Positions 11,368-32,130 of a DNA stretch of 64,000 nucleotides are shown here, piece by piece. The stretch is from Sphingobacterium allocomposti. Its GTDB lineage: Bacteria; Bacteroidota; Bacteroidia; Sphingobacteriales; Sphingobacteriaceae. A program made the translations under genes and the position numbers. The stretch is taken from assembly GCF_008124885.1 (NCBI RefSeq), contig NZ_VNHX01000022.1, positions 1-64,000 of the forward strand, written 5' to 3'. The notes beneath the pieces were generated by a model. That model did no database searches. It had not been told where the DNA came from and saw only the letters and a list, made by a program, of their open reading frames with translations. Every line of letters begins with the position of its first letter. Positions within the stretch are counted from its first letter, which is position 1.

Positions 11368-12087
11368 ATGATCGAATTAAAAGGTAAGACAGCAATAATA
11401 ACAGGCGGCAGCCGAGGTTTGGGAAAAGCTACAGCTATCGCGCTGGCTAAAGAAGGAGTACATGTCGCGATAAGCGGGCGGGATGAGCAACGGTTACAAG
11501 AAGCCGTAAAAGAATTGGAAGCTTACGGAGTAAAAGTGACTTATGCTGTTTTCGACGTGGGCAACCAAGCTGAAGTCCAAGCAGGTATCGAAAAAATAAA
11601 GAATACATTCCATCAGATAGACATTTTGATTAACAATGCCGGAATTGCTGCGTTTGGAACGGTTGAAGAGATGCCCACAGCGCAGTGGGAAAGAATTATT
11701 CAGGTTAATGTGCTCGGCGCGTATTATGTGGCGAAGGCCATTATCCCGTTTATGAAGGCACAAGGCAGTGGGGACATTATCAATATTGCGTCCACAGCTG
11801 GTTTAAAAGGCAGTGCAAACTCATCGGCATATAGCGCCTCTAAGTCGGCTGTAATCGGCTTTTCCGAGTCATTAATGTATGAGATGAGAAAGGAGAATAT
11901 CCGCGTAACAACCTTAACCCCGAGCACTATCGCTACTGATATGACGATGTCTGATCTAAAGATCACGGACGGGAATCCGGAGAAAGTGTTGCAGCCGGAA
12001 GATTTCGCGGAACTGATTACCGACATCTTGAAATTCAATAAAAGGGCTTTAATTGCAAATGCATCTATTTTCTCTACAAACCCATAA
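11368..12087 (+). CDS. Short-chain dehydrogenase/reductase, FabG-like
   Basis: A 239-residue classical SDR. The Rossmann glycine motif TGGSRGLG is at residues 12-19, NNAG at 89-92, and the catalytic triad is S142, Y155 and K159 (YSASK). Sequence is close to the 3-oxoacyl-ACP reductase/glucose dehydrogenase-like group; with no pathway neighbours the substrate cannot be assigned. NADPH use is suggested by R17 in the glycine motif. It stands 81 bp after the MFS pump gene and could be cotranscribed. It is followed at 12147 by a member of the window's RNA-like hairpin family, which should also end its transcript. Confidence 0.9.
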   Translation: MIELKGKTAIITGGSRGLGKATAIALAKEGVHVAISGRDEQRLQEAVKELEAYGVKVTYAVFDVGNQAEVQAGIEKIKNTFHQIDILINNAGIAAFGTVEEMPTAQWERIIQVNVLGAYYVAKAIIPFMKAQGSGDIINIASTAGLKGSANSSAYSASKSAVIGFSESLMYEMRKENIRVTTLTPSTIATDMTMSDLKITDGNPEKVLQPEDFAELITDILKFNKRALIANASIFSTNP

Positions 12088-14856: not shown

Positions 14857-16725
14857 CTAATCTATAACTACATTATACAACTTGTCGTGAATGCTTTTCA
14901 ACGTTGCTTCAGGTATCTTAATCACTTTACGATCGTAGGTCATCAGACCGTTGGTTTCTACTTCTACATCGGTAGTCTGTGTATATACACCGGCAGATAA
15001 TCCCAGAGGAATGAGACTTTGTAAGTTATGTACAACTTCCTCATAGCGGCGCTGAAGTTCCTCTTTGTTTTTAAACGACTGGTAGCCCCAGTTGTCCTTT
15101 TGCTGCCACGTATGTCCCTCCACAGGTAATCCCAGCCCGCCAAACTCGCCTAAAGCCAGAACGAATTTATCTCCAAAAATCTTGGGATCAGGCATTGCCG
15201 CGTCCGGGTAGTTGTGAATATCCAGAATATGCCCTGTATAAGCGAAGTTTCCGCCGCTCGCGCTATTCACCAACCGCGACGGGTCGTACTTCATCGTCCA
15301 TTCGGTAATTTCCTTGGTTTTAAACTGCCCCCAAGCTTCGTTAAACGGAACCCACACCACTATACTTGGGAAGTTATGCAAAGCGTCCATGATGTTCTTC
15401 CACTCTTTTCTGTATATGGCTTCTGACTCCGGGCTTCGTTGCTTGTCGTGCACGCCATTCGATATTTTGCCGGGCTGCATATCCCAGATGTTTCCTCCCA
15501 GGTCGCCGCTCGGCATATCCTGCCAGACTAAGATTCCAATACTGTCGCAGTGCCTATACCAGCGGGCAGGCTCCACTTTGATGTGTTTACGGATCATATT
15601 GAACCCCATCTCCTTTGTTTTCAGCACATCAAACTTTAACGCCTCATCAGACGGGGCGGTATGTAGACCGTCAGGCCACCAGCCTTGGTCCAATGGACCA
15701 TAGTGAAAGACAAACTTATCATTCAGGTACATCCGCTGAACACCTTTCCCGTCTTTTTTTACCGTTATTTTCCGCATTGCAAAATAACTCTGCGTCTGGT
15801 CGATGACTTTCCCTTTGCGTAACACCTTAACCGTCAAATCGTACAATTTGGGGCTATCCGGACTCCACAATTGGGGATTCGCTACATTCAGACTTGCATC
15901 GGACCCTACCGCTGCAGACGCCTCTGCTATCTTTCTTGCGCCATCAAAGGCCTCGACCAACAGCTGGTCTCCAGCTTGTGCTCCATCTACCTTTGCGGAC
16001 ACCGTCAAAGAAGAAGCGTCGACATCTGGCGTCTGTTTGGTAGCGACAATGTACGTCTGCGGCACAGATTCTAACCATACGGTTTGCCAGATACCCGTAA
16101 CAGGCGTATACCATATCCCGTGAGGGTTGTTTATCTGTTTACCCCGGGGTTGGGGGCCTTCACTCGTCGGATCCCAGACACGGATGGTTACCAGCTGCTT
16201 AGCTCCTTTCTTTAGAGCTGCAGTAATATCCATGTAAAATGGATCGAAACCGCCTTCATGTTGTCCCACATGCTGGCCATTGACATACACGTCACACTGC
16301 CAGTCCACGGCTCCAAAATGTAACAGCAGCTTTCCTTTCTGTAACTTTTTGTCGACACTTATTTCGTTGTGGTACCACAATGCCTGGTCCTTCCCTACGC
16401 TTTTTCCGACACCTGACAGGGCCGATTCTACGGCGAACGGAACGAGAATATCGCCGTCCCACGATGTCGGTGCTTGTCCCTGCTCTTTCGATGTGATTTT
16501 ATACTTCCACAATCCATTCAGGTTTTGCCAGTTTCCGTCCCGCTTTAGGTGCGGCCTCGGATATTCCGGATGAGGGTTCGCCGGATCCAGCTGTTCTCCC
16601 CAGCCTGTAAGAATTTTGTCTCCAGCGGGCTTCCACTGCTGAGCGTAGCCCAGGGATAAGGAGGTTGCCACCATACAAAACAGGGCCATTGTTTTTTTCA
16701 TCATTGTTTTCGGTTTTTGCTTCAT
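14857..16725 (-). CDS. Glycoside hydrolase family 2 enzyme
   Basis: A 622-residue secreted GH2 enzyme with a signal peptide ending SLSLGYAQ. Domains in order: jelly-roll sugar-binding (about 50-225), immunoglobulin-like (about 230-330) and TIM barrel (about 335-610). The acid/base is E463 in FNEAWG and the nucleophile E527 in LGEFGG. GH2 covers beta-galactosidases, beta-glucuronidases and relatives; the short form without C-terminal domains does not fix specificity. Its ATG overlaps the sulfatase stop codon by one base (TAATG), which indicates translational coupling and supports this start. As last gene of the PUL it probably trims oligosaccharides released and desulfated in the periplasm. 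Confidence 0.93.
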   Translation of the reverse strand: MKQKPKTMMKKTMALFCMVATSLSLGYAQQWKPAGDKILTGWGEQLDPANPHPEYPRPHLKRDGNWQNLNGLWKYKITSKEQGQAPTSWDGDILVPFAVESALSGVGKSVGKDQALWYHNEISVDKKLQKGKLLLHFGAVDWQCDVYVNGQHVGQHEGGFDPFYMDITAALKKGAKQLVTIRVWDPTSEGPQPRGKQINNPHGIWYTPVTGIWQTVWLESVPQTYIVATKQTPDVDASSLTVSAKVDGAQAGDQLLVEAFDGARKIAEASAAVGSDASLNVANPQLWSPDSPKLYDLTVKVLRKGKVIDQTQSYFAMRKITVKKDGKGVQRMYLNDKFVFHYGPLDQGWWPDGLHTAPSDEALKFDVLKTKEMGFNMIRKHIKVEPARWYRHCDSIGILVWQDMPSGDLGGNIWDMQPGKISNGVHDKQRSPESEAIYRKEWKNIMDALHNFPSIVVWVPFNEAWGQFKTKEITEWTMKYDPSRLVNSASGGNFAYTGHILDIHNYPDAAMPDPKIFGDKFVLALGEFGGLGLPVEGHTWQQKDNWGYQSFKNKEELQRRYEEVVHNLQSLIPLGLSAGVYTQTTDVEVETNGLMTYDRKVIKIPEATLKSIHDKLYNVVID

Positions 16726-18218
16726 TATTTGTATTTGATTTTACTTTCCGGTCGGAACGGCGCTGCCGTTGGCTCACTATCCAGCAGGGCTTTCAAGCGC
16801 AAAAAAATCGGGCTATCTGCAGACCAGATGTTCTCTTTTTCGACGAGCCCGCCTTTATAATCATATAACTCGTATTGCTCGTCTTCCCGTCCATGGAGGG
16901 GCTTCCATGCTATTAGCCGGTAGCGGGCATCGCGGATCGCTCGGCCTAGCCTCCCCTCCCGCGGAAAACAGTGATAGATATATTGCCGTGGCTCCGCACC
17001 CCTGTGCGCAAGAAAATCGGCAAAGCTTTTCCCGTCCATGGGCTGGTCGCCATTCGGCCGCGGAAGACCGCATAGCGCGGTTAGCGTTGGATATATATCT
17101 ACCGTTTCTATCAGCGCCTCTGTGTCTACGCGCCCTTCTGTACCCGGGAGGCGGATAATAAGCGGAATCCGGTTGGCCAGCTCGTGGTTTACGTGTTTTG
17201 TCCACATGCCCATTTCGCCCAAGAGGTAGCCATGATCTCCCCATAGGACGACGATCGTATTTTTGTCGAGACCAGTCTCCCGCAATTTTGCCAGCACCTT
17301 CCCAATCTGGGCGTCTACATAGCTGACACCTGCGTAATACCCGTGGATAAGCCTCCGCGTCAAGCTATCCGGAAAAGGATCGGACTCAGCTGCCGACGGT
17401 ATTTCGAGATACTGCACTATTTCGCCATCGCGTTTATTTGCATAAGGTAGCGATCCTTTCGGATTCTTTTGATCCTGCGGCATCGGGATCTCGTCGGGAT
17501 TATACAAGTCCCAATACTTCTTGGGCACGGAAAACGGAAGATGCGGCCTGGCAAAACCCACGGCAAGGAAGAAGGGCTGATTTTGCGCTTTTAAGGTCGT
17601 TAAACGTTCCATCGCCTTCTGGGCCACGCGGCCATCCGCGTAAGTTTCATCGCTTACGTCCAAGCACTCCCATGCCTTACCTTTCATCAGCTGGTTTGCC
17701 TGGTTCCACGGAACGTTGGCGAACAATGCCTCTTCCCGTGTCGCACCTACGTTGGATTTATCCGCATACTCGACCACCAGATCATATTCATGAGGCACTG
17801 ACCAGGATTGTTCGTCATTGTAGGTGTTGTGCCCCACGTGGAACACCTTCCCTATTGCCGCTGTATAATACCCCTGTCTCTTGAAGTGCTCCGGCATGGT
17901 CACCGCGCCCGGATAGAAGTCGCGAAAAGCGCGGCCAAAATCGTACAATCCGGTTGATGTCGATCGGGAGCCGAGCAGCAGGTTATAGCGTGATGCAACA
18001 CATACAGCCTGATTGGTATAAGCTCTATGAAAGACATGTGCTGTCTGCGCCAGGCGGTCTATTTGGGGGGCATGGGCAAACTTATCGCCAAAGGCGCCAA
18101 TAGACGGACGAAGGTCGTCAACCAGCAAAAACAGCACGTTATACGGCTGCTGGGCAGACAGTCTCCCCGCTACTAGCCACACTATTGATATTAATACAGT
18201 TTTATGGTATTTCATCAT
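16725..18218 (-). CDS. Sulfatase, iduronate-2-sulfatase-like (S1 type)
   Basis: A 497-residue type I sulfatase with a signal peptide (about 1-22). Metal-binding aspartates D34-D35 lie in LLVDDLRPS. The formylglycine site is C73-V-A-S-R77, the C-x-A-x-R variant recognised by anaerobic-type maturases and many FGE enzymes. The GSRSTSTGLYDFG stretch and the DHGYLLGEMGMWTKH motif place it near iduronate-2-sulfatase and related exo-sulfatases. It removes sulfate esters in the periplasm. No maturase gene is in the window. It stands between the DUF3823 lipoprotein gene (46 bp) and the GH2 gene (1-base overlap), so the locus is for a sulfated glycan. Confidence 0.93.
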   Translation of the reverse strand: MMKYHKTVLISIVWLVAGRLSAQQPYNVLFLLVDDLRPSIGAFGDKFAHAPQIDRLAQTAHVFHRAYTNQAVCVASRYNLLLGSRSTSTGLYDFGRAFRDFYPGAVTMPEHFKRQGYYTAAIGKVFHVGHNTYNDEQSWSVPHEYDLVVEYADKSNVGATREEALFANVPWNQANQLMKGKAWECLDVSDETYADGRVAQKAMERLTTLKAQNQPFFLAVGFARPHLPFSVPKKYWDLYNPDEIPMPQDQKNPKGSLPYANKRDGEIVQYLEIPSAAESDPFPDSLTRRLIHGYYAGVSYVDAQIGKVLAKLRETGLDKNTIVVLWGDHGYLLGEMGMWTKHVNHELANRIPLIIRLPGTEGRVDTEALIETVDIYPTLTALCGLPRPNGDQPMDGKSFADFLAHRGAEPRQYIYHCFPREGRLGRAIRDARYRLIAWKPLHGREDEQYELYDYKGGLVEKENIWSADSPIFLRLKALLDSEPTAAPFRPESKIKYK

Positions 18219-18264: not shown

Positions 18265-18939
18265 TTACTTTATTTTTTCCACATGGCTATCATATATAGC
18301 CTCTGTTATTCCGTTAATTTTGACGCCCACCCTCGCGAAAACACTGTTTGAGCTCGCTAGTTGACTACCTACATTTAACCGGATAGTAATAGTACCTTCA
18401 TCTATACCGGTGAGGGTTTCCCGTGCGGTAAAGTGGCCGAGATCGACAAAGTATGTGTCGTTGACTAATAAACTGACGTCATCGATAGTTCTGATCTCGC
18501 TTATTCTTTCGAGATCGAAGGTCGCCACGAGCTCTTGCCCTTCCAGTTTATAATCGACTTCCGATAGCGAGAAGAACGGCCTGACGGAAAAATCGATATG
18601 TGTATCGCCTCTGACCTCCACCTGTAGTGTATCGGCCGTGTGTTCCCACGGCCCGTTCCCCGGCACCGTCACCAGTTTGTACGTTCCGTCAAAAAGCTGC
18701 GCGGAAAACGAGCCGTCTTGCGAAACAAATACATCTATCGGAGTCTTTACCGGAAAACCGTCTTGCCACAGTTGCAGCCGGACGGAGGCATTCGACCCAC
18801 GAACACCAACGGGCTTCCCGTTGTAGGTTACCACCCCCGTCAACATCGACGAAGGTGCTTCGTAATTGTCCTTTCCACATGCTATAATCAGCACACTGAA
18901 GAGGAATAAAAGAACCGGTTTAACAAAAAATGTCTTCAT
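18265..18939 (-). CDS. DUF3823-domain lipoprotein (SusE-position)
   Basis: 224 residues with a lipobox LIIAC (cysteine 21). An N-terminal beta-sandwich resembling a carboxypeptidase regulatory fold starts at LTGVVTYNGKPV; the remainder is beta-rich. DUF3823 proteins are regularly encoded directly after SusD and are presumed surface glycan-binding or complex-stabilising lipoproteins; no enzymatic motif is visible. It follows SusD by 64 bp and precedes the sulfatase by 46 bp in the same operon. Confidence 0.85.
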   Translation of the reverse strand: MKTFFVKPVLLFLFSVLIIACGKDNYEAPSSMLTGVVTYNGKPVGVRGSNASVRLQLWQDGFPVKTPIDVFVSQDGSFSAQLFDGTYKLVTVPGNGPWEHTADTLQVEVRGDTHIDFSVRPFFSLSEVDYKLEGQELVATFDLERISEIRTIDDVSLLVNDTYFVDLGHFTARETLTGIDEGTITIRLNVGSQLASSNSVFARVGVKINGITEAIYDSHVEKIK

Positions 18940-19003: not shown

Positions 19004-20818
19004 TTATTGATATGGATTCCGGACAAGCTTCGGGTTAGCATTAATCCAGTCTTGGTTGATAAAATTGTAATAATTCTGATATCTAAAATAGCGGGGATAC
19101 ATCGTATGGCTGGCTTTGCGCTTCTCAAACACCCATTTGTCGTGATATTCTGTCCCGGGCGCGTATACCTTATATGGAAAAAGCACGTAATGCGTTGCTG
19201 TAGGCGTATCCTGACCATTCCACACTTCGTGGGCAATACGCCAGCGTTTCAAATCCCAATAGCGATGGTTTTCAAAAGCAAACTCGACCCGCCGCTCGCG
19301 GACGATATCCTGTAAGGTAACCTGTTCTAAAGGCTGGATGCCCGCCCTTGCTCGAATCTCGTTAATATATCCGGCAACTTCGTCCTGAGGCCTGTTCAGT
19401 TCCAACGCAGCTTCAGCTGCGATCATGAGAAATTCGGCAAAACGAAAGCGTACAAACCACATGTCACTGCCGCGCCCGCGGGTCGAAGCATCGCGATTCT
19501 CTTCGACGAACTTACGTATATTAAAGCCTGTTTTATTGATAAACTGGTCGTTAGATGTCGTCGGACCGTCTTGACTTGTTACGAGACCATAAGTATTGTC
19601 TATAGCCCCCGGGGTGCCGGTTCTTACCTTCCATTCTCCATTTTCAAGATAACGCACTCCCGCCTGATAGGTTATTGCCGTTCCACCAAAATCTGCCCCG
19701 GAGTAGATGACCGTTCCATAAAGTCTTGGATCCTTGTTCGCAAAGACATCCTGCGGATTGGTATAGTAAATGAAGTCACCACTTTCGTCTCTTAGTTTCA
19801 ATGCTCCATTACGGCGATCTATATACTCAAAGTCCTCGACAAGATTGAGTATAGGCGTTACGATATTGGCATCGATATCACCTCTTACAGAGGAGGCTAC
19901 CACGTTGTTCGTAAAGGGGTGAGTTTGCCCTGGATATTTATAATCTCTCGCCCAGATAACTTCTTCACTTCCCTTGCTGCTCGTCGCCTCGTAGAAATTT
20001 CTACCTTTGTCGGCATTTTTTTGATAAAGCACATATGGACTGTCCTGTATGATCGTCAGCGCCGTTTCATATGCGATCTGGTAAAAGCGTGTAGCTTCCG
20101 ATGCCGGAATCCCCACTTCCCCTCCTGCTGTTTTTACATCTGGCGTCCGCGCGCCGTATTTCGCTATTGAGGCTGCATACAAAGCAGCTCTTGCTTTTAG
20201 TGCAAGTGCGACCCATTTGTTTGCCCGGGCTGAATTGGCATTCTTATCAGTCGTTAGTATATCGGCAGCGGCTGTACATTCGTCGATAATATATTCGTAG
20301 GACGCTTGCTCCGTTGCACGCGCGATCTGGAGCTCTTCGGGATTCATACCCGGTTGATAACCATAGATCTTGTCGCCTACCAATGGTACACCGCCTAGCC
20401 TCTTCACCATATTAAAATAGACCCATGCCCGGATAAACCGTGCTTCGCCCTCATAATTACGTTTCGTCTCTTCTTCCAATGTCGATCCTTTGACACCTTG
20501 GATAAACTCGTTCAGGTTGCGTATGAGGGTGTAATCATACATCCGCCAGATATCGTCAGCATAATTCTGCATATTGTTAGGCCCGCCGGAAGAAAAAGCC
20601 GCCTCGTCGAGCAGTGCGAAGGAACCTGGGTCGCCTAGATGCTGTCCCCAATCCATTCGCCCATAATAGTTTGCCAGAACTGCCAGAATCATCTTTTCGT
20701 CGGAATACACCTGATCCTCGGGCAAGATCGACTGAGATTCCCGCTCCAAAAACTTCGAACAGCTGCTGATCAGCACCATAGTACCGACCATATATATATA
20801 AATAAAAAATCTATTCAT
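19004..20818 (-). CDS. SusD/RagB-type surface lipoprotein
   Basis: 604 residues. Signal peptide with lipobox LISSC, followed by SKFLERES. The N-terminal TPR-like SusD region (for example EGEARFIRAWVYFNMVKRLG at about 125-144) and the C-terminal RagB/SusD region with VRERRVEFAFENHRYWDLKR are both complete. It begins 2 bp after the SusC stop, so the pair is translationally linked and forms the uptake complex of the sulfated-glycan PUL. Confidence 0.95.
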   Translation of the reverse strand: MNRFFIYIYMVGTMVLISSCSKFLERESQSILPEDQVYSDEKMILAVLANYYGRMDWGQHLGDPGSFALLDEAAFSSGGPNNMQNYADDIWRMYDYTLIRNLNEFIQGVKGSTLEEETKRNYEGEARFIRAWVYFNMVKRLGGVPLVGDKIYGYQPGMNPEELQIARATEQASYEYIIDECTAAADILTTDKNANSARANKWVALALKARAALYAASIAKYGARTPDVKTAGGEVGIPASEATRFYQIAYETALTIIQDSPYVLYQKNADKGRNFYEATSSKGSEEVIWARDYKYPGQTHPFTNNVVASSVRGDIDANIVTPILNLVEDFEYIDRRNGALKLRDESGDFIYYTNPQDVFANKDPRLYGTVIYSGADFGGTAITYQAGVRYLENGEWKVRTGTPGAIDNTYGLVTSQDGPTTSNDQFINKTGFNIRKFVEENRDASTRGRGSDMWFVRFRFAEFLMIAAEAALELNRPQDEVAGYINEIRARAGIQPLEQVTLQDIVRERRVEFAFENHRYWDLKRWRIAHEVWNGQDTPTATHYVLFPYKVYAPGTEYHDKWVFEKRKASHTMYPRYFRYQNYYNFINQDWINANPKLVRNPYQ

Positions 20819-20820
20819 GA

Positions 20821-23800
20821 TTAAAAAGTTATGTTGAGTCCCACGTTAATCACCTTATTTGTTGGATATTGAATTCCCGAGTCGGCTGTCAGTTCGGGAT
20901 CTATCTTCATCTTCCCCAAGTTGTCAATACTGAATAGGTTCTGCATCATCGAATATATGCGAAGGTTTTTAAGCCCCCATCGTTGCGTCAATGATGAAGG
21001 AAGCGAATAGCCTATCTGCAAGTTTCTTAGCTTTAAATACGTAACATTCATCAGCCAGAAATCGCTGTGCCAATAGTTACTATGGTTTTGACGTCCAAGA
21101 ATAAGCGTTGGAAACTCGCCGGGAATCAATTCACTATTAGGATCGGTGATATCGCTTAGCATCCACTGATTTTCCATATAGTATGCCGCGTTGTTACCTC
21201 CGTCGTGGAACGGTAACATACCTTCCCAGTTTGCCCGGTATGATGCAAAAGAAGCTCCTGTCAAATCCATGGCAATATCAAAACCTCTGTATTGTACTCC
21301 AAGATTGAGCGCAAAGTTCAGGTACGGCAACCCGCCTTGACGGTAGCCTATCGGCCGTTCGTCCAAGTGGTTAATAACCTTGTCACCATTGACATCTTCA
21401 TACTTGATATCCCCCGGACGGAGCGTTGTATTTCCTTCCCTATCGTTGTCAATCGTATAATTTTCAATCTCTTCCCAGCTCTGGAACTGTCCTATGGCAT
21501 GCAGCCCCCAATTTAAGAACGCGTATCGATCGGTGATGGAGTTCCGATATTCGTCCCAGGCGTTACCGAATCGTGGTTTGTACTGTCTGCCGTCCAACTG
21601 ACGCGCATAGGTAAAGTTTCCGCCAACGAAGTAGTTGACATTTCCCGCGTTACTCCTCCACATAATACTTCCGTCAACACCGCGGTGAATGTCCGAATTT
21701 AGGTTTTCGTATGGCAGACTGAACCCCATTTCCCAGGGGATTAAAATATCATCCCTGGATGCGGGAAGCCCGGTGCGTTTACGATTAAAATAGTCCAGTG
21801 CTCCCGATAGTTTCCCGCCGAGCAGAGCAAAGTCAATCCCCACATCAAATGTGTTCGCACGGATCCAGGAAAGCGATGTAACGGGAAGACCGCGCGGCTG
21901 GGCTCCAACCACGTAATTACCCCCGATAGTAGATCCTCCCTGGTTATAGAGATAGCCGGGTAAAAAGCCGAAAGCATAATATTGCCAATCATCTAGGTTA
22001 TCATCGCCTAACGCACCATACGACGCACGAAGTTTCAGATCCTGAAAGGCGTTCCCAATAAATGAATCTTTAAGGAAGCTTTCCTGCGCTATACGCCAAC
22101 CAGCAGATACCGATGGGAAGAATCCCCAGCGGCTTCCCGGGGGGAACTTCCATGAGCCGTCGTAGCGCCCTGCAATCTCCAAAAGATACCTACCGTCGTA
22201 GTCGTAATTAAAACGTCCGGCGAAGCCTGCCCGTGCCTGCGTGTCAATCCCCGTGTCGTCAAATTGGTCCATTGTCTGAAAGTAGATTAGGGATAAACTG
22301 TTTGATGCCGGCCGGTCGTGCAACCAGAATCCCGGTTCGTCGCGTTGTATCGCTTCGGCCGCTAAGACGGCGTTCAGATTGTTCTTGCCGATACTTTTTG
22401 TATAGTTCAACGTGGCTTGATAACTAAGCTCTTCGACTTGGCGGATATCCCGTTCACGCCATGGATTACCCATTGTAAATACGACAGGATAGGTATCAGT
22501 GGCCTCGTCGTAATCGTAAAGCTTATAGGTAAACTCTTGATTATCCATCCATTTATTCGCCAAATAATAGCCTACCAATCCCCGGATTTTTAAGTTGTCT
22601 GTTAGCTTATACTCTGCATTAAAATTCAGCTGCATAACCCGCCAAGCCTCTTGATATTCTCCGGAAAGATCATAGTTTAACATGCCGAAATTTGTTTCCG
22701 TATTGGCGGCCGTCCGGGCAGGATATAGCGGATTGTCATTGGCAAAAGGGCGAGCTGTCGGAAGATTTCTATAAATAGCAAATAGGGCCTGCCACGTATC
22801 ATCGGCGCCCGGTACACCCGGTTGGCGGCGCTTTTCAATCCGCCCGTTTAGGTTTCCACCCACTTTCAACCTACTGGAAATATCGGCATCTAAATTGAAC
22901 TGAACATTTGTTCTATTAAAGCCTCCATAGTTTCGTATGATAGACTTCTGATTGAGGTGACCTGCGCTAAGATAGTAGTTTATCTTGTCCGAACCGCCGC
23001 TCGCTGCTCCGGAAATATATGTTTGCGGACTCGTTTCCAGTATATAATCATACCAATCAAAGGGCCTGTAGCCCTTCTCTGTACCTTCCTCCCATTTAGC
23101 CAGATCTTCCATCGTATACCGAGGTTCAGGCGTTCCCAAAATAGCGTCAGACTGGATATAACTTTTGATATACGTCGACGCACTGGCCGGCCGGGGGAAG
23201 CGAAACATACTTTGCCACCCGTAATAGCTATTTATACTGAATTGATTTTGATCCCCCCTCTTACCTTTTTTTGTCGTCACGACAACAACACCGTTAGCCG
23301 CCCGTACCCCGTAAATGGCTGCTGATGCATCCTTTAGAACGGATATAGACTCGATGTCGTTGAAGTCTAGGTTATTAAATTGTCCGGCATCCTTCTGTAC
23401 GCCGTCAATCACGTAAAGGGGGTTGCCCATATTACGGATATTTATATTGGTCGCAGCGCCGGGCCTGCCGTCGGGCATCCTACTATTTACGCCCGCGAGC
23501 TTCCCCACCAGTGCGCCTGACGTTGTCGTCGCCACCGAACGGGCCAGATCCTCCGATTGTACAGAAGATATAGCACCCGTAACAGATTCCTTCTTTTGTG
23601 TTCCGTATCCAACCACGACAACCTCTTCGATGTTGGCGTCGTCCGTCTGCAGTGTTATTTCCATCGCTCCGGCTTGTGCCTGGACTTCCAGCGTCGTGTA
23701 ACCTACGGAGCGAAAAACGATCGTTTTATCGACTGCAGATATGGTAAAGTTAAATCTACCGTCCTGGTCTGTTGTGGTTCCCTCTGCCGGATTGTGCTTT

Positions 23801-23991
23801 GACTGTACCGTCACGCCTTGTAGCGGGTTTCCTTGGGCGTCTTTAACCGTTCCTTGCACCGTTTGTTGTTGCGACTCCCATACGAAAGGGATGCTATGTG
23901 CTGCCGCTCCTCCCTCCGGAACAGCCCCGACAAGCAGTCCGGTGAGCACAATGCACTGCAATGATATGCATGTAATCCTTTTGACAATCAT
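20821..23991 (-). CDS. SusC/RagA-type TonB-dependent receptor
   Basis: A 1056-residue outer-membrane transporter. Signal peptide, a carboxypeptidase-D-like domain (about 43-120, starting TVQGTVKDAQGNPLQGV), the SusC motif EEVVVVGYGTQKK at about 126-138, the plug with VLKDASAAIYGVRAANGVV, and a long barrel ending LNITF. It imports the oligosaccharides of this PUL together with the SusD partner. Upstream lie two direct repeats with 21-bp period and a TAACTTTG box, interpreted as the site where the AraC-type regulator at 29910 activates it. The 24090-24307 part of the gap has no further signal. Confidence 0.96.
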   Translation of the reverse strand: MIVKRITCISLQCIVLTGLLVGAVPEGGAAAHSIPFVWESQQQTVQGTVKDAQGNPLQGVTVQSKHNPAEGTTTDQDGRFNFTISAVDKTIVFRSVGYTTLEVQAQAGAMEITLQTDDANIEEVVVVGYGTQKKESVTGAISSVQSEDLARSVATTTSGALVGKLAGVNSRMPDGRPGAATNINIRNMGNPLYVIDGVQKDAGQFNNLDFNDIESISVLKDASAAIYGVRAANGVVVVTTKKGKRGDQNQFSINSYYGWQSMFRFPRPASASTYIKSYIQSDAILGTPEPRYTMEDLAKWEEGTEKGYRPFDWYDYILETSPQTYISGAASGGSDKINYYLSAGHLNQKSIIRNYGGFNRTNVQFNLDADISSRLKVGGNLNGRIEKRRQPGVPGADDTWQALFAIYRNLPTARPFANDNPLYPARTAANTETNFGMLNYDLSGEYQEAWRVMQLNFNAEYKLTDNLKIRGLVGYYLANKWMDNQEFTYKLYDYDEATDTYPVVFTMGNPWRERDIRQVEELSYQATLNYTKSIGKNNLNAVLAAEAIQRDEPGFWLHDRPASNSLSLIYFQTMDQFDDTGIDTQARAGFAGRFNYDYDGRYLLEIAGRYDGSWKFPPGSRWGFFPSVSAGWRIAQESFLKDSFIGNAFQDLKLRASYGALGDDNLDDWQYYAFGFLPGYLYNQGGSTIGGNYVVGAQPRGLPVTSLSWIRANTFDVGIDFALLGGKLSGALDYFNRKRTGLPASRDDILIPWEMGFSLPYENLNSDIHRGVDGSIMWRSNAGNVNYFVGGNFTYARQLDGRQYKPRFGNAWDEYRNSITDRYAFLNWGLHAIGQFQSWEEIENYTIDNDREGNTTLRPGDIKYEDVNGDKVINHLDERPIGYRQGGLPYLNFALNLGVQYRGFDIAMDLTGASFASYRANWEGMLPFHDGGNNAAYYMENQWMLSDITDPNSELIPGEFPTLILGRQNHSNYWHSDFWLMNVTYLKLRNLQIGYSLPSSLTQRWGLKNLRIYSMMQNLFSIDNLGKMKIDPELTADSGIQYPTNKVINVGLNITF

Positions 23992-24023
23992 AGGTAAGTT
24001 TAGTTATGTTTATAATCGATAAC

Positions 24024-24089
24024 CAAAGTTAGTTGCCCCTGACTGTAATAGGTTTCCAAATCATCTCATTTTATTGCCAAATCGTCTCA
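24024..24089 (-). promoter_or_regulatory. Activator site and promoter of susC
   Basis: In plus-strand reading, CAAATCATCTCA (24057-24068) and CAAATCGTCTCA (24078-24089) are direct repeats with a 21-bp period. On the minus strand they precede, by exactly 25 nt, a TAACTTTG -7 box (24031-24024). No TTG sits at the -33 position, which suits an activator-dependent promoter. The same arrangement occurs at 26657-26722. Confidence 0.7.
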
Positions 24090-24307
24090 ATCCGCGGTCC
24101 GACAGTGTTCCCGCCGCCCCCTGATTTCGCTTACATGGCAGCATTCGAGCGAGGAGACATGGCCACAGTAGTACGAAGCGCAGCGCCGGGCGACGAATAG
24201 ACGCCGATACAACCCGCCTTAGCCCCCTAGACTGTCCTCACATAAAAGACCACGCTACGGATAGCTACAAATAGGATACAATGAATTCGCTGTAGTCGGC
24301 TGTAAAA

Positions 24308-25399
24308 CTAAAACCTTCTTTTTCCGGTAGTCGGGCCATCGACCACGAGGGTTCCGTCAGGCAGGATTTTCATTTCGTCAATGAACACAAATCGCTGATC
24401 CCCGCCGGTAGTGGTTCGCCCGTGATAAACGCACCACCATCTGCCGTCCTTCCCCCGTAAAAGGCTGTTGTGCCCCGTTCCCGACACCACACCTCCATTT
24501 TGTGTATTCTTCTGTAAGACCGGATTATTGGCCGATTTGCGGAACGGTCCCAGCGGACCCGTAGCTGTGGCATACCCTACTGCATAGTTTTCTCCTGCAA
24601 AATGATTCGCGGAATACATCATGTAATAGGTGTCACCTTGCTTAAAAAGAAATGACCCCTCTGTCCACCTCCGGTTGATTTCTCCCGAAGTAACCGACCT
24701 GCTTTCCCATTCCGACTGCGGGTCATTCATCTTCAAAGGTGGGCGCAACAATAGTACGGGCTCTCCGATCACTCCAGAGAAATCCGGAGATAGCTCAACG
24801 CCGTATACCCAGCTCTCTTCAATCTCCGGAAACAACCCTTTAGCCTTCGCCCAGTCGGCGATTTCCGACGATACGGGATGCTTATAACAACACCTCGAAT
24901 AATACAGGTATAACTTACCATCATCCGCGAAAAAAACGTTCGCATCGATAATCGGGTAGCCCGGATCGAAAAGCGGTTTGCCTGTCAAATCCTTAAATGG
25001 CCCCGTCGGACTGTCCGCAACAGCAACGCCTATCCGGTAGTTTTCCAGTTCATTATGGGGATTATCTTTCCAATGCGCGCTGTAAAACAGGTAGTATTTA
25101 TTATTAAAGAAATATACTTCAGGGGCCCAAAAGTCTTTAACTCCCCAGGCTTCAGGCTGGGACGACTCATAAACAACCCCTTCGTTGGTCCAGTCGTTGA
25201 GATCGGCAGACGAATAAACGACAAACCTGTTAGGAGTGCCTCCGGTGCCGTAAAGGTAATACTTGTCTGCTTTTTCATCGTAGATGATGTACGGATCGCC
25301 CAAAGGTACGTTCAATGGGTTTGATGGCATACCTTTCTGCGCTAAAGCCGCGGCCACCTGGACCAATAGACAGCAAAGGACTAAAAATCTGTAGTTCAT
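24308..25399 (-). CDS. GH43 glycosidase (first of two)
   Basis: A 363-residue secreted five-bladed propeller enzyme with a signal peptide ending AAALAQ. The GH43 triad is visible: base D35 in PLGDPYII, pKa modulator D152 in PIIDANVF, and acid E247 in RWTEGSFLF. No extra C-terminal module. GH43 enzymes are alpha-L-arabinofuranosidases, beta-xylosidases, arabinanases or exo-galactanases; which applies is not decided by the sequence alone. It starts within the stop of the preceding GH43 gene (4-bp ATGA overlap), with GGAGGAAAC before the ATG, and is cotranscribed with it. Confidence 0.92.
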   Translation of the reverse strand: MNYRFLVLCCLLVQVAAALAQKGMPSNPLNVPLGDPYIIYDEKADKYYLYGTGGTPNRFVVYSSADLNDWTNEGVVYESSQPEAWGVKDFWAPEVYFFNNKYYLFYSAHWKDNPHNELENYRIGVAVADSPTGPFKDLTGKPLFDPGYPIIDANVFFADDGKLYLYYSRCCYKHPVSSEIADWAKAKGLFPEIEESWVYGVELSPDFSGVIGEPVLLLRPPLKMNDPQSEWESRSVTSGEINRRWTEGSFLFKQGDTYYMMYSANHFAGENYAVGYATATGPLGPFRKSANNPVLQKNTQNGGVVSGTGHNSLLRGKDGRWWCVYHGRTTTGGDQRFVFIDEMKILPDGTLVVDGPTTGKRRF

Positions 25400-26478
25400 T
25401 GTTTCCTCCTTTCAAAAAATCTTGGGCCTACACGTTCAGTATGGCTGGGGTTTTGAGTTTCCATCCGGGGCCATCCATTTTCCCATATGAGTTTGTCCAA
25501 CATCAACGTCCGGCGGCTTGCCCCGCTGCGCACCTTCGGATTGTCTTTCCAGATAGCATGGTAGAGAAACCAGTCCTGACCGTCATCGTCCCGAATTAAT
25601 CGGGTGTGATGCCCCGGCCCGGCGATCAGATCATTGCCTTCCAAAAGCAATGCACCCCTCCCGCGCTGGGTAACCTGCTCGCCTTCTTTATCAACATAAG
25701 GCCCCTCTAAAGCAGAAGATCTCGCAACCCACACTTTGTACTGGCTGTCCGCACCCTCGCAACAGCTACCTTTTGAACCAAAAAGGTAGTAATAGCCTCC
25801 CTTTTTGTGAATCATCGGAGCTTCCCAATCACCGGCCGCCAGCTGGATTTTTCTATTGACGTCGACGACCCTTCTGCCATCGGCCGACAACTCTATGAGA
25901 TGGATGCCCTGATTAGGACCTTCGCCAAAGCTGCCCCATACCAGGTATTTTTTGCTTCCCTCCTGAAAAAAGGCGGGGTCAATGGAGTTTGGTACGCCGG
26001 TGTTTTCGGAGTCAAACAACATGCCCTGATCCTCAAAAGGCCCTTCCGGTCCACCTGCGATAGCGAGTCCTATACCGGGATTACTGTCACCCCACTTGGA
26101 GTATGCGTAGTATAGGTAGTACCTGCCTTCCACGATATTTGCATCGGGTGCCCACAGTCCTCCGCCGTCCTTCCATGTAGGTTTATCCTGAAACACCTCT
26201 CCGACATATTCCCAGTCCATCAGATTTTTGGATTTTATGATGGGCATTAGCCGCTGCCCCTGCCCGTCACCCCAATCGTCCTGTGTACCGTAAGCATAAA
26301 AATAACCGGTGTGGGGATCCCTGATCAACGTTGGATCCGCTAATATCGGCTCGAAAACAGGATTAACATAGCTGTCTGCCGAGTGGACACCCAGTTGACG
26401 TCCTCCGCGGCAGCACACGCAGAAAAACAGTAGGCAAAGGAATGTCCAAAAAATATATCTCCTTTTTATATGATACAT
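25396..26478 (-). CDS. GH43 glycosidase, arabinanase-like
   Basis: 360 residues with a hydrophobic N-terminus and cysteines at 20-23 that may make it a lipoprotein (LFFCVCC). Triad: D48 in LADPTLI, D167 in SIDPAFF and E219 in DWEAPMI. The stretch GSKGSCCEGADSQYKVWVARS is typical of endo-arabinanase-like and related GH43 subfamilies. First gene of a two-gene operon with the other GH43, itself upstream of susC on the same strand. Its promoter region carries the same operator arrangement as susC. Surface attachment would let it make the first cut (inference). Confidence 0.92.
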   Translation of the reverse strand: MYHIKRRYIFWTFLCLLFFCVCCRGGRQLGVHSADSYVNPVFEPILADPTLIRDPHTGYFYAYGTQDDWGDGQGQRLMPIIKSKNLMDWEYVGEVFQDKPTWKDGGGLWAPDANIVEGRYYLYYAYSKWGDSNPGIGLAIAGGPEGPFEDQGMLFDSENTGVPNSIDPAFFQEGSKKYLVWGSFGEGPNQGIHLIELSADGRRVVDVNRKIQLAAGDWEAPMIHKKGGYYYLFGSKGSCCEGADSQYKVWVARSSALEGPYVDKEGEQVTQRGRGALLLEGNDLIAGPGHHTRLIRDDDGQDWFLYHAIWKDNPKVRSGASRRTLMLDKLIWENGWPRMETQNPSHTERVGPRFFERRKQ

Positions 26479-26656
26479 ATCGTTTCTTGAAGTCTCTTAG
26501 TCATTTTGTTACGCTGGATTTTAATTCGCCGCTTACACTGCAGCTTCGTTTTTTACGGTTTGTTTACGTTCACGGTCTTCGATCTGTATTGGAAACGTTG
26601 AGTTATCCTCCGACGATTTTCCGTGTTCCCTCAGCCGGCCCAGTTAGACGCATTTT

Positions 26657-26722
26657 CAAATATGCGTATTCTCTTTCACAAACAGTTGCCAAATTTTCTC
26701 AATAAATTACTATTTTGTCTCA
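26657..26722 (-). promoter_or_regulatory. Activator site and promoter of the GH43 operon
   Basis: In plus-strand reading, CAAATTTTCTCA (26690-26701) and TATTTTGTCTCA (26711-26722) are repeats with a 21-bp period. Exactly 25 nt separate them from CATATTTG on the minus strand (26664-26657), as at susC. The expected transcript has a leader of about 170 nt before the GH43 ATG at 26478. The repeats end 3 bp before the sensor gene's first ATG (26726), so binding could also affect that gene. 26479-26656 shows no other signal. Confidence 0.65.
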
Positions 26723-26725
26723 TTC

Positions 26726-29700
26726 ATGAGCATTTATCCGCAGCGATGTATGAAACCAGCACGAAGCCTACTACCGACCATTCCAAAAGAAACGATTAAC
26801 CTCACCCTCAAACTGTTAGTCAGCACTTTTCTATGCCTTTTGTCTGGGTCGGTATCGGGGCAACCCTATTTTAACCATTATGGTGTCGACGAGGGTGTTT
26901 CCAATAACGCTATTCTATGCAGCGTCCAAGATAAAGATGGCTTCCTCTGGTTTGGTACAAAGGATGGGCTTAATCGGTTTGACGGTTATACTTTTAAGCA
27001 GTACTATAGCGATACGGACAGCAATAATGGTTTGGGGAGCAACTTTATTCACAGTTTATTGGTAGATAGGGAAAAAAATATCTGGGCAGGAACCGATCAG
27101 GGGATCTATATTTTTAATCCGTTTTTAGAGCGATTCACTCCTTTTTCCCATGAGAAAGAAGCTGAGATACTGCAGATCGAGGAAGATGGGGATGGTAACA
27201 TCTGGTTTATATCAAACAACCGCCTTTTCTGCTTTCTGCCCAAGACCAAGGAACTGGTTCAGCGAAGTAGTATACATGAGCATGTCGTATCCGCGTTCGG
27301 CTTCGATCAGGCCGGGCGGGTATGGATGGGAAGCGGCGATTTTATCACCTGCTTAAATACAAACGTATCCTATCGCCTACCAAAGTTGAATACGGCGCCC
27401 CAGTGGATCGAAAAGATATATACAGATAGCCAGGGATTGTTATGGATAGGCACCTCTAAACACGGCGTTTATACGTTAGAGCCGAAAACAGGACAAATAA
27501 AGCAGGTCCTGCCTTCGATCGGAAATAACCCGTTGTTTGTGCGGGACATTTACCAGCCAGATCCAAACCATCTTTGGATTGGCACAGAAAGCGGAGTCGT
27601 TATTTACAACCGTCATAACGGAAAGTACCGGGTCTTGAGACATCAGGGAGATGACCCCTGGAGCCTTTCCGACAATGCCGTTTATACGATTTGTGGCGAC
27701 CATCAGGGGGGCCTTTGGGTGGGGACATTCTTCGGCGGTGTCAATTATCATCATCCCCAACATGATCTTTTTCAAAAATTTTTCCCCCGGTTCTCACGAA
27801 GCTCTATCCAAGGGCATGCCGTCCGCGAAATTGTGGAAGATTCATATCAGCAACTTTGGGTGGGAACAGAAGATAACGGTCTATGTGTATGGAACCGAAG
27901 CAATGGCATTTTCAGCACGCTTACCCTCCTTTCCGGCCTGTCTCATACCAACATTCATGGTCTCGCGCTGGTCGGCGACAGTTTGCTCGTGGGCACCTTC
28001 GACCGGGGATTGGACATCGTCGACGTTCGTACCCGTAAAATTATACGACATCTCAACACAGACAACACACACGGGGGGCTTAGCAACAATTTCGTATTTC
28101 ATATCTATCGCACGCGACAAGGACGCGTGCTACTGGCTACGGCGCGGGGACTTTGCGAATTTTTTCCCGGCACGGACCGGGTCGTCCTGTTGAAAGAAGC
28201 TCCCGATTATATTTTTTACACATCAATTTTTGAAGATAAGGACGGCGTGCTCTGGCTGGCGACGTGGCGCGACGGGCTTTATCGTATTGATCCGAAAGAC
28301 GGGCGTATACAAATATTCCGGCACGATCGAAACAATCCGAAAAGCTTAAACAGCAATCGTGTAAACCGCGTATACCAGGACAGTAATAACTTTATATGGA
28401 TCGCGACGGAGAACGGGCTGGCCCAGTGGTCCGCTAATGGGACGCCTGTTAGGCGCATCACGAAGAAAGACGGACTGCCAAGCAATCTTATTTTGGCAAT
28501 GGAAGAAGATAACGAAGGCAATCTATGGATATCGACCACGCGGGGGCTCGTACGGCTACGTCTGCAAGACCAACAGATCAGGATTTTCGACAAAGAGTCC
28601 GGACTCCTGGACTTGCAGTTCAATTATAATTCGGTACATAAAGACAGCAAAGGACATTTCTATTTTGGATCGTCAACCGGACTAATACGGTTTCACCCGG
28701 ATTCGATAAGGAGTTTGTCCTCTCCGCAACCGCCGGTACCTATATATATAACGCGGATTCAGATACTACAGAGAGATCTGAGGGTCGGGCATGGAAGTCT
28801 GGCTGTTGATACGGCAGTCACGTACATCAACAAGATCAAACTCAAGCACGATGAATCCACGATTTCTTTGGATTTCGCCGCCTTAAATTTTGTAACTTCC
28901 AAATCGACATCGTACATGTATCTGCTGGAAGGGTTCGACAAAGAGTGGACGTTGTTACGTCAATCCCATACGGCCCATTTTACAAAGCTGCCGCCGGGTT
29001 CGTACCGGTTCCGCGTGAAGGCGGTCGACGTGAGCGGACAGGCGATATCCAACGAATTATCGTTGGATATCGAAGTTGATCCTCCTATCTGGGCGAGTAC
29101 CGCAGCATTCATCTTGTATTTCATTGCGGCATCGATTCTCATCTACTTATTGGTAACCACATACGACCGCCGGATCAAAGAAAAAAACAGACGGCGCTTA
29201 GAAGCTATTAAGACACATAGGGAACGGGAACTATTCAGAGTTAAAATGGATTTTTTAGCCCGTGTGGCGCACGATATCAAAACACCGCTCACACTTATTA
29301 AAGCGCCCTTGGAACGGCTACGTCATCAGCCTCAATCTGATCCGCGCACCGTCCGGCTTCTGGATACCATGCATAATAACACGGAAAAGCTCGTCGGCCT
29401 GACCAATCAGCTACTTGACTTTCGGAAAATTGAAAGCAGCGAACATAATTTAAAGCTCGAACGGCTCAGCGTTAACCAGTTGGTTTCTGACCGCCTCCTC
29501 GAATTCCAGCCGGCGTTCAACCAACGCCACCTGTCTTTTAGCTACCGGTGCGACCAGGTGATAGACGCCTATATCGACGCGGAAATCGTCTGCAAGATCA
29601 TCGATAACCTGTTGACCAATGCTGTCAAGTATGCCGACAAAATCGTGGCCGTCGAACTCAAGGCCGATAGCAACGGGCGGTTTTTCTCCTTTGTCGTTAA

Positions 29701-29917
29701 AAACGACGGACGCCAGCTATCTGAGCAGGACATCAACGCGGTTTTTAAGCCTTTTTACCGCACCTCTAGGCATCTGCAGATTGAAGGTTCGGGACTGGGA
29801 CTTGCCCTGGCACATTCCTTCGCCGAACTCCACCGCGGCTCTTTAATTTTTTTAAATAACTCGGAGAATTTAAATATATTCGTATTGCAGATACCAATAG
29901 AAGGGACCTATGACTAA
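26726..29917 (+). CDS. PUL sensor histidine kinase (propeller/Y_Y_Y), separate from its regulator
   Basis: 1063 residues. After a signal segment (about 25-46) come two seven-bladed two-component propeller domains (repeats of the type WFGTKDGLNRFDG, IWIGTESGVVIYNR) to about 660, and a Y_Y_Y domain (about 700-785). A membrane helix (about 790-811), a HisKA domain with phosphoacceptor H849 in RVAHDIKTPL, and a HATPase domain with DNLLTNAVKY and GSGLGLAL follow. This is the sensor half of a Bacteroidota hybrid two-component system; it binds an oligosaccharide in the periplasm. Unlike most hybrids the receiver and AraC domains are in a separate gene overlapping by 8 bp. ATG at 26750 is an alternative start that leaves more leader. 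Confidence 0.93.
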   Translation: MSIYPQRCMKPARSLLPTIPKETINLTLKLLVSTFLCLLSGSVSGQPYFNHYGVDEGVSNNAILCSVQDKDGFLWFGTKDGLNRFDGYTFKQYYSDTDSNNGLGSNFIHSLLVDREKNIWAGTDQGIYIFNPFLERFTPFSHEKEAEILQIEEDGDGNIWFISNNRLFCFLPKTKELVQRSSIHEHVVSAFGFDQAGRVWMGSGDFITCLNTNVSYRLPKLNTAPQWIEKIYTDSQGLLWIGTSKHGVYTLEPKTGQIKQVLPSIGNNPLFVRDIYQPDPNHLWIGTESGVVIYNRHNGKYRVLRHQGDDPWSLSDNAVYTICGDHQGGLWVGTFFGGVNYHHPQHDLFQKFFPRFSRSSIQGHAVREIVEDSYQQLWVGTEDNGLCVWNRSNGIFSTLTLLSGLSHTNIHGLALVGDSLLVGTFDRGLDIVDVRTRKIIRHLNTDNTHGGLSNNFVFHIYRTRQGRVLLATARGLCEFFPGTDRVVLLKEAPDYIFYTSIFEDKDGVLWLATWRDGLYRIDPKDGRIQIFRHDRNNPKSLNSNRVNRVYQDSNNFIWIATENGLAQWSANGTPVRRITKKDGLPSNLILAMEEDNEGNLWISTTRGLVRLRLQDQQIRIFDKESGLLDLQFNYNSVHKDSKGHFYFGSSTGLIRFHPDSIRSLSSPQPPVPIYITRIQILQRDLRVGHGSLAVDTAVTYINKIKLKHDESTISLDFAALNFVTSKSTSYMYLLEGFDKEWTLLRQSHTAHFTKLPPGSYRFRVKAVDVSGQAISNELSLDIEVDPPIWASTAAFILYFIAASILIYLLVTTYDRRIKEKNRRRLEAIKTHRERELFRVKMDFLARVAHDIKTPLTLIKAPLERLRHQPQSDPRTVRLLDTMHNNTEKLVGLTNQLLDFRKIESSEHNLKLERLSVNQLVSDRLLEFQPAFNQRHLSFSYRCDQVIDAYIDAEIVCKIIDNLLTNAVKYADKIVAVELKADSNGRFFSFVVKNDGRQLSEQDINAVFKPFYRTSRHLQIEGSGLGLALAHSFAELHRGSLIFLNNSENLNIFVLQIPIEGTYD

Positions 29918-30695
29918 TGCAGCAACACGTAAATCGACTGTTTTGGTGGCGGACGACCATCAGGAGATACTTGACTTCATTGCGGATGACCTGTGTGACA
30001 GCTACCATGTCTTAAAGGCTAAAGACGGCGTCGGCGCGTTGACTCTCTTAACGGAACAACCGGTGGACGTTATTATAAGCGATATTATGATGCCAAACAT
30101 GGATGGATATGCCCTCTGTACGCGCCTGAAAGAAGACATACGGTTTTGCCACATCCCTTTTATCATGCTGACAGCTAAGAACAGCCTGCAATCTAAAATT
30201 GAGGGCCTGGAATACGGGGCCGATGCCTATATTGAAAAGCCTTTCTCGCCCACTTTTCTGCAAGCTCAAATCTCCAGTTTACTGCGAAACAGACAGAATG
30301 TACGTGCTCACTACAACCACTCCCCCACGAGCCCGCTGCAAAGCATAGCTTTAAATCAAGCGGATCAAGCATTCTTAAATCAATTGAACCAATTGATTTT
30401 GGAGAATATTACCGAGGCCTCCTTGTGCGTTGACCTTTTGGCCGACAGAATGCATATGAGCAGACCTACCTTATATCGGAAGATAAAGGCCCTTTCTGAT
30501 CTCTCGCCAAATGAGCTCATCAATATCACGCGATTAAAAAAGGCTGCTCAGCTGCTCGAAGAGGGACATTACCGGATTTACGAAATATCCTCTTTGGTAG
30601 GATTTAGCTCTTCTTCCCACTTTATACGCAATTTTCAAAAACAGTTTGGTATTAGTCCCAAGGAATGGGCAGATCAGCATCGGACGAGCGCTTAA
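29910..30695 (+). CDS. Response regulator with AraC-type DNA-binding domain
   Basis: 261 residues. Receiver domain about 10-125 with acidic pocket D15-D16, phosphoacceptor D58 in IISDIMMPNMDG and the lysine in YIEKPFSP. AraC-type double helix-turn-helix about 160-257, with LSPNELINITRLKKAAQLL and the signature VGFSSSSHFIRNFQKQFGISPKEW. It is the output half of the sensor encoded just upstream; genes overlap by 8 bp (ATGACTAA) in different frames, so translation is coupled. The probable targets are the 21-bp-period repeats in front of susC and the GH43 operon. Confidence 0.93.
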   Translation: MTNAATRKSTVLVADDHQEILDFIADDLCDSYHVLKAKDGVGALTLLTEQPVDVIISDIMMPNMDGYALCTRLKEDIRFCHIPFIMLTAKNSLQSKIEGLEYGADAYIEKPFSPTFLQAQISSLLRNRQNVRAHYNHSPTSPLQSIALNQADQAFLNQLNQLILENITEASLCVDLLADRMHMSRPTLYRKIKALSDLSPNELINITRLKKAAQLLEEGHYRIYEISSLVGFSSSSHFIRNFQKQFGISPKEWADQHRTSA

Positions 30696-32130
30696 CCGAG
30701 CCGGTTCGTGGTTAGGAGTTAGAAGGGAGAAGCTGGAAGTCAGAAGTAAGAAGGTTAGATTGCTTCGTCGTCGTACCTCCTCCTCGCAAAGACGCGTCTT
30801 TACGACTTTTAGCTATTGGCTGTTGGCTAATAGCCATCTGCCATTAGCTTCACTTCACGACTTTATACCGAAACTCTATGCAAAGGCGGCCTTGCGCGGA
30901 AGAAAGGACCGGCATTGGTTCGACTGCGTCAGCATTTCTACTGATTGGTAGTTGGGAGTTAGGGATTAGGTCGTGATTAGAGACTTCACAAATTATTTCC
31001 AACTTCCTTTTTAATTTTTACATTTTAATTTTTACTTTTTCCGACCTTCCAAGTAAAACCCCTGCCCCGGGTTGAGGGGCAATATAGATGTGAGATGTTA
31101 GATATTAGATGTGAGATTTGAGATTTGAGTAGTGAGAATAGTTAGATGGAGTTAGAGTAGTTAGTATCGTAGGCTTATGGCTGTCATTTGCCATCTGCCA
31201 TTAGCTTCACTTCACGACTTTATACCGAGACTCTATGCAAAGGCGGCCTTGCGCGGAGGAAAGGACCGGCATTGGTTCGACTGCGTCAGCATTTCTACTG
31301 ATTGGTAGTTGGGAGTTAGGGATTAGGTCGTGATTAGAGACTTCACAAATTATTTCCAACTTCCTTTTTAATTTTTACATTTTAATTTTTACTTTTTCCG
31401 ACCTTCCAAGTAAAACCCCTGCCCCGGGTTGAGGGGCTATAAAGATGTGAGATGTTAGATATTAGAAGTGAGATTTGAGATTTGAGATTTGAGTAGTGAG
31501 AATAGTTAGATGGAGTTAGAGTAGTTAGTATCGTAGGCTTATGGCTGTCATTTGCCATCTGCTATTCGCCATCTGCCATTAGCTTCACTTCACGACTTTA
31601 CACCGAAACTCTATGCAAAGACGGCCTTGCGCGGAAGAAATGACCGGCATTGGTTCGACTGCGTCAGCATTTCTACTGATTGGTAGTTGGGAGTTAGGGA
31701 TTAGGTCGTGATTAGAGACTTCACAAATTATTTCCAACTTCCTTTTTAATTTTTACATTTTAATTTTTACTTTTTCCGACCTTCCAAGTAAAACCCCTGC
31801 CCCGGGGTTGAGGGGCTATAAAGATGTGAGATGTTAGATATTAGAAGTGAGATTTGAGATTTGAGTAGTGAGAATAGTTAGATGGAGTTAGAGTAGTTAG
31901 TATCGTAGGCTTATGGCTGTCATCTGCCATCAGCTATCTGCCATTAGCTTCAATTCACGACTTTACGGTTCTCCCCCAATCGCGAAGATATTCGACCCCG
32001 TCAGGGTCGTGTCATTGGGTGCACGTTTTTCTATTGAAATATGACCTCTACGAGGTCAATTGTTGCTTTTACGGCCATTAGCCAACAGCCATCTGCTATC
32101 TGCCATTAGCTTCACTTCACAAGCAACAAA
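30696..32130. repeat. Repeat-filled gap with a threefold tandem repeat of about 360 bp
   Basis: Three copies of a unit begin at 30851, 31208 and 31586 (periods 357 and 378 bp) with a truncated fourth at 31951. Each unit holds CTTCACGACTTTA, a stretch with GGACCGGCATTGGTTCGACT, T-rich sequence around 31005-31045, the palindrome-bearing CCTGCCCCGGGTTGAGGGG, a TGAGATTTGAG-type low-complexity run and heptamers of the ATCTGCC/ATTAGCC type. Copies differ by length of the TGAGATTTGAG run and the heptamer run. 30751-30800 carries a GCGAGGAGG-type element (as complement). No credible gene. Confidence 0.85.
31994..32057 (+). repeat. 64-bp paired-hairpin element, copy 1
   Basis: Hairpin 1 GACCCCGTCAGGGTC and hairpin 2 GACCTCTACGAGGTC, outermost bases 64 bp apart, flanked by ATTC and AAT. 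Confidence 0.85.

Follow-up and report, generated by a model that had tools for sequence, protein, structure and literature searches.

The locus and its regulatory genes

The window, a 64,000-nt stretch of DNA from Sphingobacterium allocomposti, carries on its minus strand a PUL for a sulfated glycan, which encodes SusC, SusD, DUF3823, sulfatase and GH2 proteins, while a pair of GH43 genes stands separately at 24308-26478 (Table 1). The genes for a sensor histidine kinase and a response regulator are divergent from the GH43 genes. The closest named relatives of the regulator encoded at 29910 are found in Sphingobacterium species. Downstream, between the regulator gene and a ZIP transporter gene (30818-32128), are three long direct-repeat copies of 300 nt, spaced 357 and 378 nt apart, of which the second and third are 97% and 82% identical to the first, plus shorter partial copies. 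No Rfam match was found anywhere in the window, these repeats included.

Table 1. Genes and predicted regulatory elements of the PUL.
Feature	Position	Strand	Basis or remark
GH2 glycoside hydrolase	14857..16725	-	
Sulfatase, C-x-A-S-R core	16725..18218	-	
DUF3823 protein	18265..18939	-	susC operon membership inferred from adjacency
SusD-like protein	19004..20818	-	domain search; probable susC operon member by adjacency
SusC-like TonB-dependent transporter, predicted regulator target	20821..23991	-	domain search
susC promoter -7 box TAACTTTG	24024..24031	-	25 nt from repeat
Predicted susC operator, direct repeat TGAGACGATTTG-N9-TGAGATGATTTG	24057..24089	-	coding strand
GH43, second predicted operon, gene 2	24308..25399	-	domain search
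GH43, second predicted operon, gene 1	25396..26478	-	domain search
GH43 operon -7-like box CATATTTG	26657..26664	-	25 nt from repeat; one base off TAnnTTTG
Predicted GH43-operon operator, TGAGACAAAATA-N9-TGAGAAAATTTG	26690..26722	-	coding strand; also just 5' of divergent kinase gene
Sensor histidine kinase: Reg_prop propeller, Y_Y_Y, HisKA, HATPase_c	26726..29917	+	domain search
Response regulator: receiver + AraC-type HTH_18; predicted binder of both operators	29910..30695	+	domain search

The original prediction described the regulator as HTCS-type, with an AraC-type domain. The domains bear this out, with a propeller/Y_Y_Y sensor that carries HisKA and HATPase and a receiver followed by an AraC-type HTH_18 domain. 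However, an HTCS is a single polypeptide, whereas here the kinase and regulator ORFs lie in different frames and overlap by 8 nt. Since they are separate genes (26726-29917 and 29910-30695), they form a split pair that resembles an HTCS but is not fused. From the N-termini of its orthologues, the kinase probably starts at 26750 rather than at 26726. A LytTR regulator was considered first and rejected, as the DNA-binding domain is AraC-type HTH_18; LytTR regulators also use direct repeats about 21 bp apart.

Among close orthologues (57-77% identity), the regulator occupies its own open frame of 261-281 codons in all 20 close loci, and a relative of the kinase is present in 18 of them. In the remaining two, L037 and L038, no kinase relative was found in the stretch around the regulator, which is possibly an orphan there. 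The receiver residues D15, D16, D58, T88 and K110 are invariant in 10 of 10 aligned sequences.

The paired repeats and their promoters

Both predicted operons are preceded by a direct repeat made of two 12-bp half-sites with a period of 21 bp. Upstream of susC these are CAAATCATCTCA (24057-24068) and CAAATCGTCTCA (24078-24089); upstream of the GH43 genes they are CAAATTTTCTCA (26690-26701) and TATTTTGTCTCA (26711-26722). This period, and a gap of exactly 25 nt to a -7 box at both promoters, had been claimed at the outset, and all of the coordinates were confirmed. The further claims that both promoters point toward the minus-strand genes and lack a -33 TTG also stood: the orientation and spacing of the repeats fit the minus-strand operons, and no TTG ends 17-23 nt before either box. 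A direct repeat of about 21-bp period 5' of PUL operons, as expected of an HTCS-type operator, is present in both cases.

The two promoters differ in how closely they match the Bacteroidota primary-sigma promoter. On the minus strand, TAACTTTG is the sole strict match to TAnnTTTG in 23985-24160, and no strict match occurs in 26470-26760, where CATATTTG differs at the first base; the -7 element is thus strict only at susC and one base off at the GH43 operon. The -33 TTG/TTTG is missing from the gap sequences of both. No TTG at all occurs between the susC repeat and its box, and the TTTG in the GH43 gap has its end 14 nt from the box, closer than the usual 17-23 nt. A strict-pattern test for the -33 element comes out empty at the GH43 promoter because the box itself is not strict. 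The missing -33 is compatible with activator dependence, yet it is weak evidence for it, as the element is not universal in the phylum; according to an excerpt of PMC7366714, the -33 motif was not found in Flavobacterium johnsoniae. The GH43 leader in the window would be about 170 nt long; in the corresponding loci of S. griseoflavum (L034) and S. deserti (L035), only a short distance separates box and gene.

Recurrence of the repeat in the genome and in relatives

A single 12-mer is not enriched, with 55 matches in the window at up to two mismatches against 70 expected. The paired form is another matter. A search for the paired pattern had been suggested along with the original prediction, and when the 33-mer was run against both strands of the genome (4.39 Mb in 53 contigs) with at most three mismatches in 20 positions, it matched three places: the two window promoters and one site beside a paralogous regulator. 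The reversed-pattern control matched none. The same three places were recovered by a profile search that scored 150 of 2824 first-look candidates, with rough E-values of 2.5e-4, 1.4e-3 and 2.8e-3, the next best being 0.46. The profile was made from 24 of the 28 sites collected from relatives and the genome, omitting the two window sites, the third genomic copy and a minus-strand site at 11637 in L051, but it is not wholly independent of the window, because its 24 sites had been found via a matrix derived from the window half-sites. The repeats thus exceed chance, and it is the paired form that carries the signal, not the lone 12-mer.

The third copy is at 18449-18481 of contig C13 (L054:10450-10482), some 400 nt 5' of a further susC/susD pair, and has no box at 25-27 nt. 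Its neighbour encodes an orphan receiver-AraC protein of 290 aa that is 40% identical to the 29910 regulator; no kinase was found among the eight neighbouring ORFs scanned. Both proteins contain the segment SRPTLYRK, which we take to be the first recognition helix. The segment alone does not predict the operator, since regulators of the mid group described below that have no motif at their locus (e.g., L097) carry it as well.

The repeat was then followed across relatives of the regulator in regions of about 20 kb, using three groups of 20 loci: the close orthologues, a mid group (47-56% identity) and a distant group (40-45%). Twenty other stretches of the close-group genomes, unscreened for PUL content, served as the control. 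Scored at periods of 12-31 with a matrix from the four half-sites of the window, period 21 came out best in 17 of 20 close loci, 8 of 20 mid loci (among which two region pairs overlap, L095/L112 and L096/L113), 1 of 20 distant loci and none of the 20 control loci. The loci are not fully independent, because the promoters share ancestry. Period 21 was not best in the close loci L038, L044 and L052; in the latter two, the best-scoring period was 12. In a second set from named genomes, in which 80 loci were reduced to 69 by dropping 11 already used, and which includes several close sister species, each locus was represented by its best 21-bp site; period 21 came out ahead of all others in 50 of the 69. 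These sites come from Parapedobacter, Pedobacter, Mucilaginibacter, Chitinophaga and Terrimonas, among others.

Without any motif as input, a search for direct repeats in front of genes gave a consistent picture in the 20 close loci, with 15 rows at lag 21 and no more than two at each other lag from 14 to 31. Because four sites appear on both strands, the 15 rows come down to 11 distinct ones, and two of these (L039 and L041) are unlike the motif. In the mid, distant and control groups, this search returned 2, 2 and 3 rows at lag 21, not above several other lags, and near distant HTCSs it stayed at background. A self-similarity test upstream of strict TAnnTTTG boxes gave little: lag 21 was seen at 2 of 39 close, 4 of 20 mid, 0 of 17 distant and 1 of 51 control boxes, and lag 22 at 3 of 51 control boxes, although this test is limited because many boxes in the close loci are not strict. 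For these reasons, the geometry could not be extended to distant fused HTCSs and is not claimed to be general. Fused HTCSs do occur in the mid group, and since some of them have the repeat (L099, L105), one operator type can be common to split and fused forms.

The position and orientation of the sites are conserved along with their sequence and spacing. Of 28 sites, 26 have an ORF (at least 150 codons) starting no more than 700 nt downstream on the expected strand, and the downstream genes include susC, GH43, sulfatase and GH2. In 15 of the 20 close loci, a site is located directly upstream of the kinase gene. In S. deserti, susC and the GH43 genes have each retained their site, with a box 25 nt away, while the flanking bases diverge. 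S. griseoflavum, with similarly diverged flanks, keeps the GH43 site; its 19.8-kb stretch yielded no relative of SusC or SusD, and the second repeat-plus-box precedes a sulfatase gene instead.

The distance to the box is usually kept as well. When the L051 minus-strand site at 11637, which has no box at 25-27 nt, is omitted from the 28, a TTTG box follows the repeat by 25-27 nt at 22 of 27 sites (25 nt in 11, 26 in 10 and 27 in one), or 22 of 28 if it is kept. Any other offset from 0 to 79 occurs at no more than three sites, and the box played no part in selecting the 27. The five exceptions are L037, L043:17821, L045:17738, L051 and the C13 copy; GH2-side sites have the box in three of five cases (L040, L046 and L047, not L043 or L045). 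Among the 44 of 69 second-set loci that scored 19 or more, the box is at 25-26 nt in 22 (13 at 25 and 9 at 26) and misses in the other 22, six of which, from sister species, have a TTTG at 31. Alignments of the susC promoters of the window, L035, L042 and L048 and the sulfatase promoter of L034 reveal conserved islands at the repeat, the box and a downstream ATTATA-AC; in the GH43 promoters of the window, L034 and L035, the repeat and the box are conserved.

A further short element, TATAAAC, follows the repeat by no more than 120 nt at 9 of 27 sites; the control loci give an expectation of about 0.01 per 120 nt. The element is found in the window at 24008-24014 (minus strand) and in L034, L035, L036, L039, L044, L047, L048 and L051, and is possibly a conserved leader or translation element.

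Proposed regulation and relation to known operators

The best explanation, to which we give a probability of about 0.87, is that both repeats are operators of the 29910-30695 response regulator, through which it would activate the susC and GH43 promoters. In accordance with the original prediction, the repeats follow the orthologues of this regulator across genera, in one orientation upstream of PUL operons. As the same paired site and distance occur at two promoters, in a layout kept in many relatives, both are very probably under the control of the neighbouring sensor-regulator pair. Domains of the AraC type recognise direct repeats whose halves face the same side of the DNA, two helical turns apart. 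The kinase at 26726 may detect, in the periplasm, a product of glycan breakdown and phosphorylate the regulator, which would bind as a head-to-tail dimer with one AraC-type domain per half-site, the half-sites lying on the same helix face two turns apart. The promoter-side end of the repeat, 25 nt before the -7 box, would fall just upstream of the -33 position. It is because an activator bound there can touch sigma that the repeat is read as an activator site; the bound regulator might replace the missing -33 contact and bring RNA polymerase to both promoters. The analysis itself shows sequence, conservation, orientation and spacing, and the remaining steps, from ligand sensing and phosphorylation to dimer binding and activation, are inferred from family knowledge.

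A chance match in AT-rich intergenic DNA is extremely improbable. It would agree with the lack of over-representation of the single 12-mer in the window, but the rarity of the pair in the genome, the profile search, the tracking of period 21, the box spacing, the motif-free search and the second set together speak against it. It is also unlikely, though less so by far, that the main binder of the repeats is a different regulator of this type, such as the orphan receiver-AraC protein of C13, or that both proteins bind them in a form of cross-talk. The third genomic copy does lie upstream of a susC/susD pair beside this protein, which has the same SRPTLYRK segment; however, in 15 of 20 close loci it is the kinase gene preceding the 29910 orthologue that has the site directly 5' of it, the two regulators are only 40% identical, and the C13 site has no box at the usual distance.

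The other competing idea concerns only the GH43-side repeat, which might mainly repress or auto-regulate the divergent kinase gene, any effect on the GH43 genes being secondary. Feedback on the kinase is possible because the repeat ends 27 nt before its likely ATG at 26750 (26 nt in L034 and 18 nt in L035), and on the kinase strand the half-site nearer that gene has the sequence TATTTTG, resembling a -7 box. However, the orientation and spacing suit the minus-strand operon, and copies away from the kinase gene have the same layout, namely those at susC (window and L035) and three of the five GH2-side sites. This idea appears slightly more doubtful even than binding by the C13 protein.

The proposed arrangement resembles the classic AraC system. 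In E. coli, AraC at araI1-araI2 binds direct half-sites about 21 bp apart beside the -35 region, where the dimer activates; it binds arabinose directly and loops DNA. The direct half-sites about 21 bp apart next to a promoter element are shared with the sites described here, but in this case the DNA-binding domain follows a receiver, and the promoter belongs to the Bacteroidota -7 type.

The layout is not new, since HTCS operators of Bacteroides thetaiotaomicron were predicted in 2013 as direct repeats with an average distance of 21 bp, the dimer being placed on one DNA face (Ravcheev et al. 2013, PMC3878776, excerpted text). Among these, HTCS_Rgu-1 is described as having two sites of 12 bp each and 9 bp between them, which is the same 12 + 9 arithmetic as in the window repeats. 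Those HTCSs are fused single proteins of Bacteroides, whereas here the genes are separate and belong to Sphingobacteriaceae and relatives; the window repeats are TGAGAC-based, and their added feature is the 25-26 nt to the -7 box. No fixed distance from repeat to -7 box is stated in the excerpted text of PMC3878776, and no paper stating one was found in the excerpted literature on HTCS binding, repeats and promoter spacing. The same excerpts describe SusR operators as direct repeats upstream of the sus genes; these have a distance of 67 or 77 bp, and SusR has a different DNA-binding domain from that of the 29910 regulator. Gel shifts have shown binding to PUL promoters by fused HTCS regulators of the same domain type (excerpts of PMC11253607 and PMC5061871), and ChIP-seq exists for BT0366 and BT1754 (excerpt of PMC3404733). 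What the present locus adds to the known layout is a well-supported predicted operator pair with a specific sequence, a split regulator and the 25-26 nt spacing.

A broader joint reading is tentative and, on balance, doubtful: split and fused PUL sensor-regulators of the Bacteroidota might share one promoter design, consisting of a 21-bp-period repeat, 25-26 nt, a TTTG-only -7 box and no -33, and in this clade the same operator might shut down the divergent kinase as negative feedback. If this were true, operator, target operons and start sites would be predictable from sequence alone across the phylum.

In the narrower case, the finding supplies a clade of PUL regulators from Sphingobacteriaceae and Chitinophagaceae with a conserved predicted operator, made of TGAGACAAwwTR-like half-sites at 21 bp, and with its promoter spacing; HTCS motifs had been predicted in Bacteroides, to which this clade does not belong. 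The operons expected to be under the control of one regulator are now named, making the prediction easily testable, and the spacing of 25-26 nt to the -7 box may serve as a rule of thumb for activator-dependent promoters without a -33 element.
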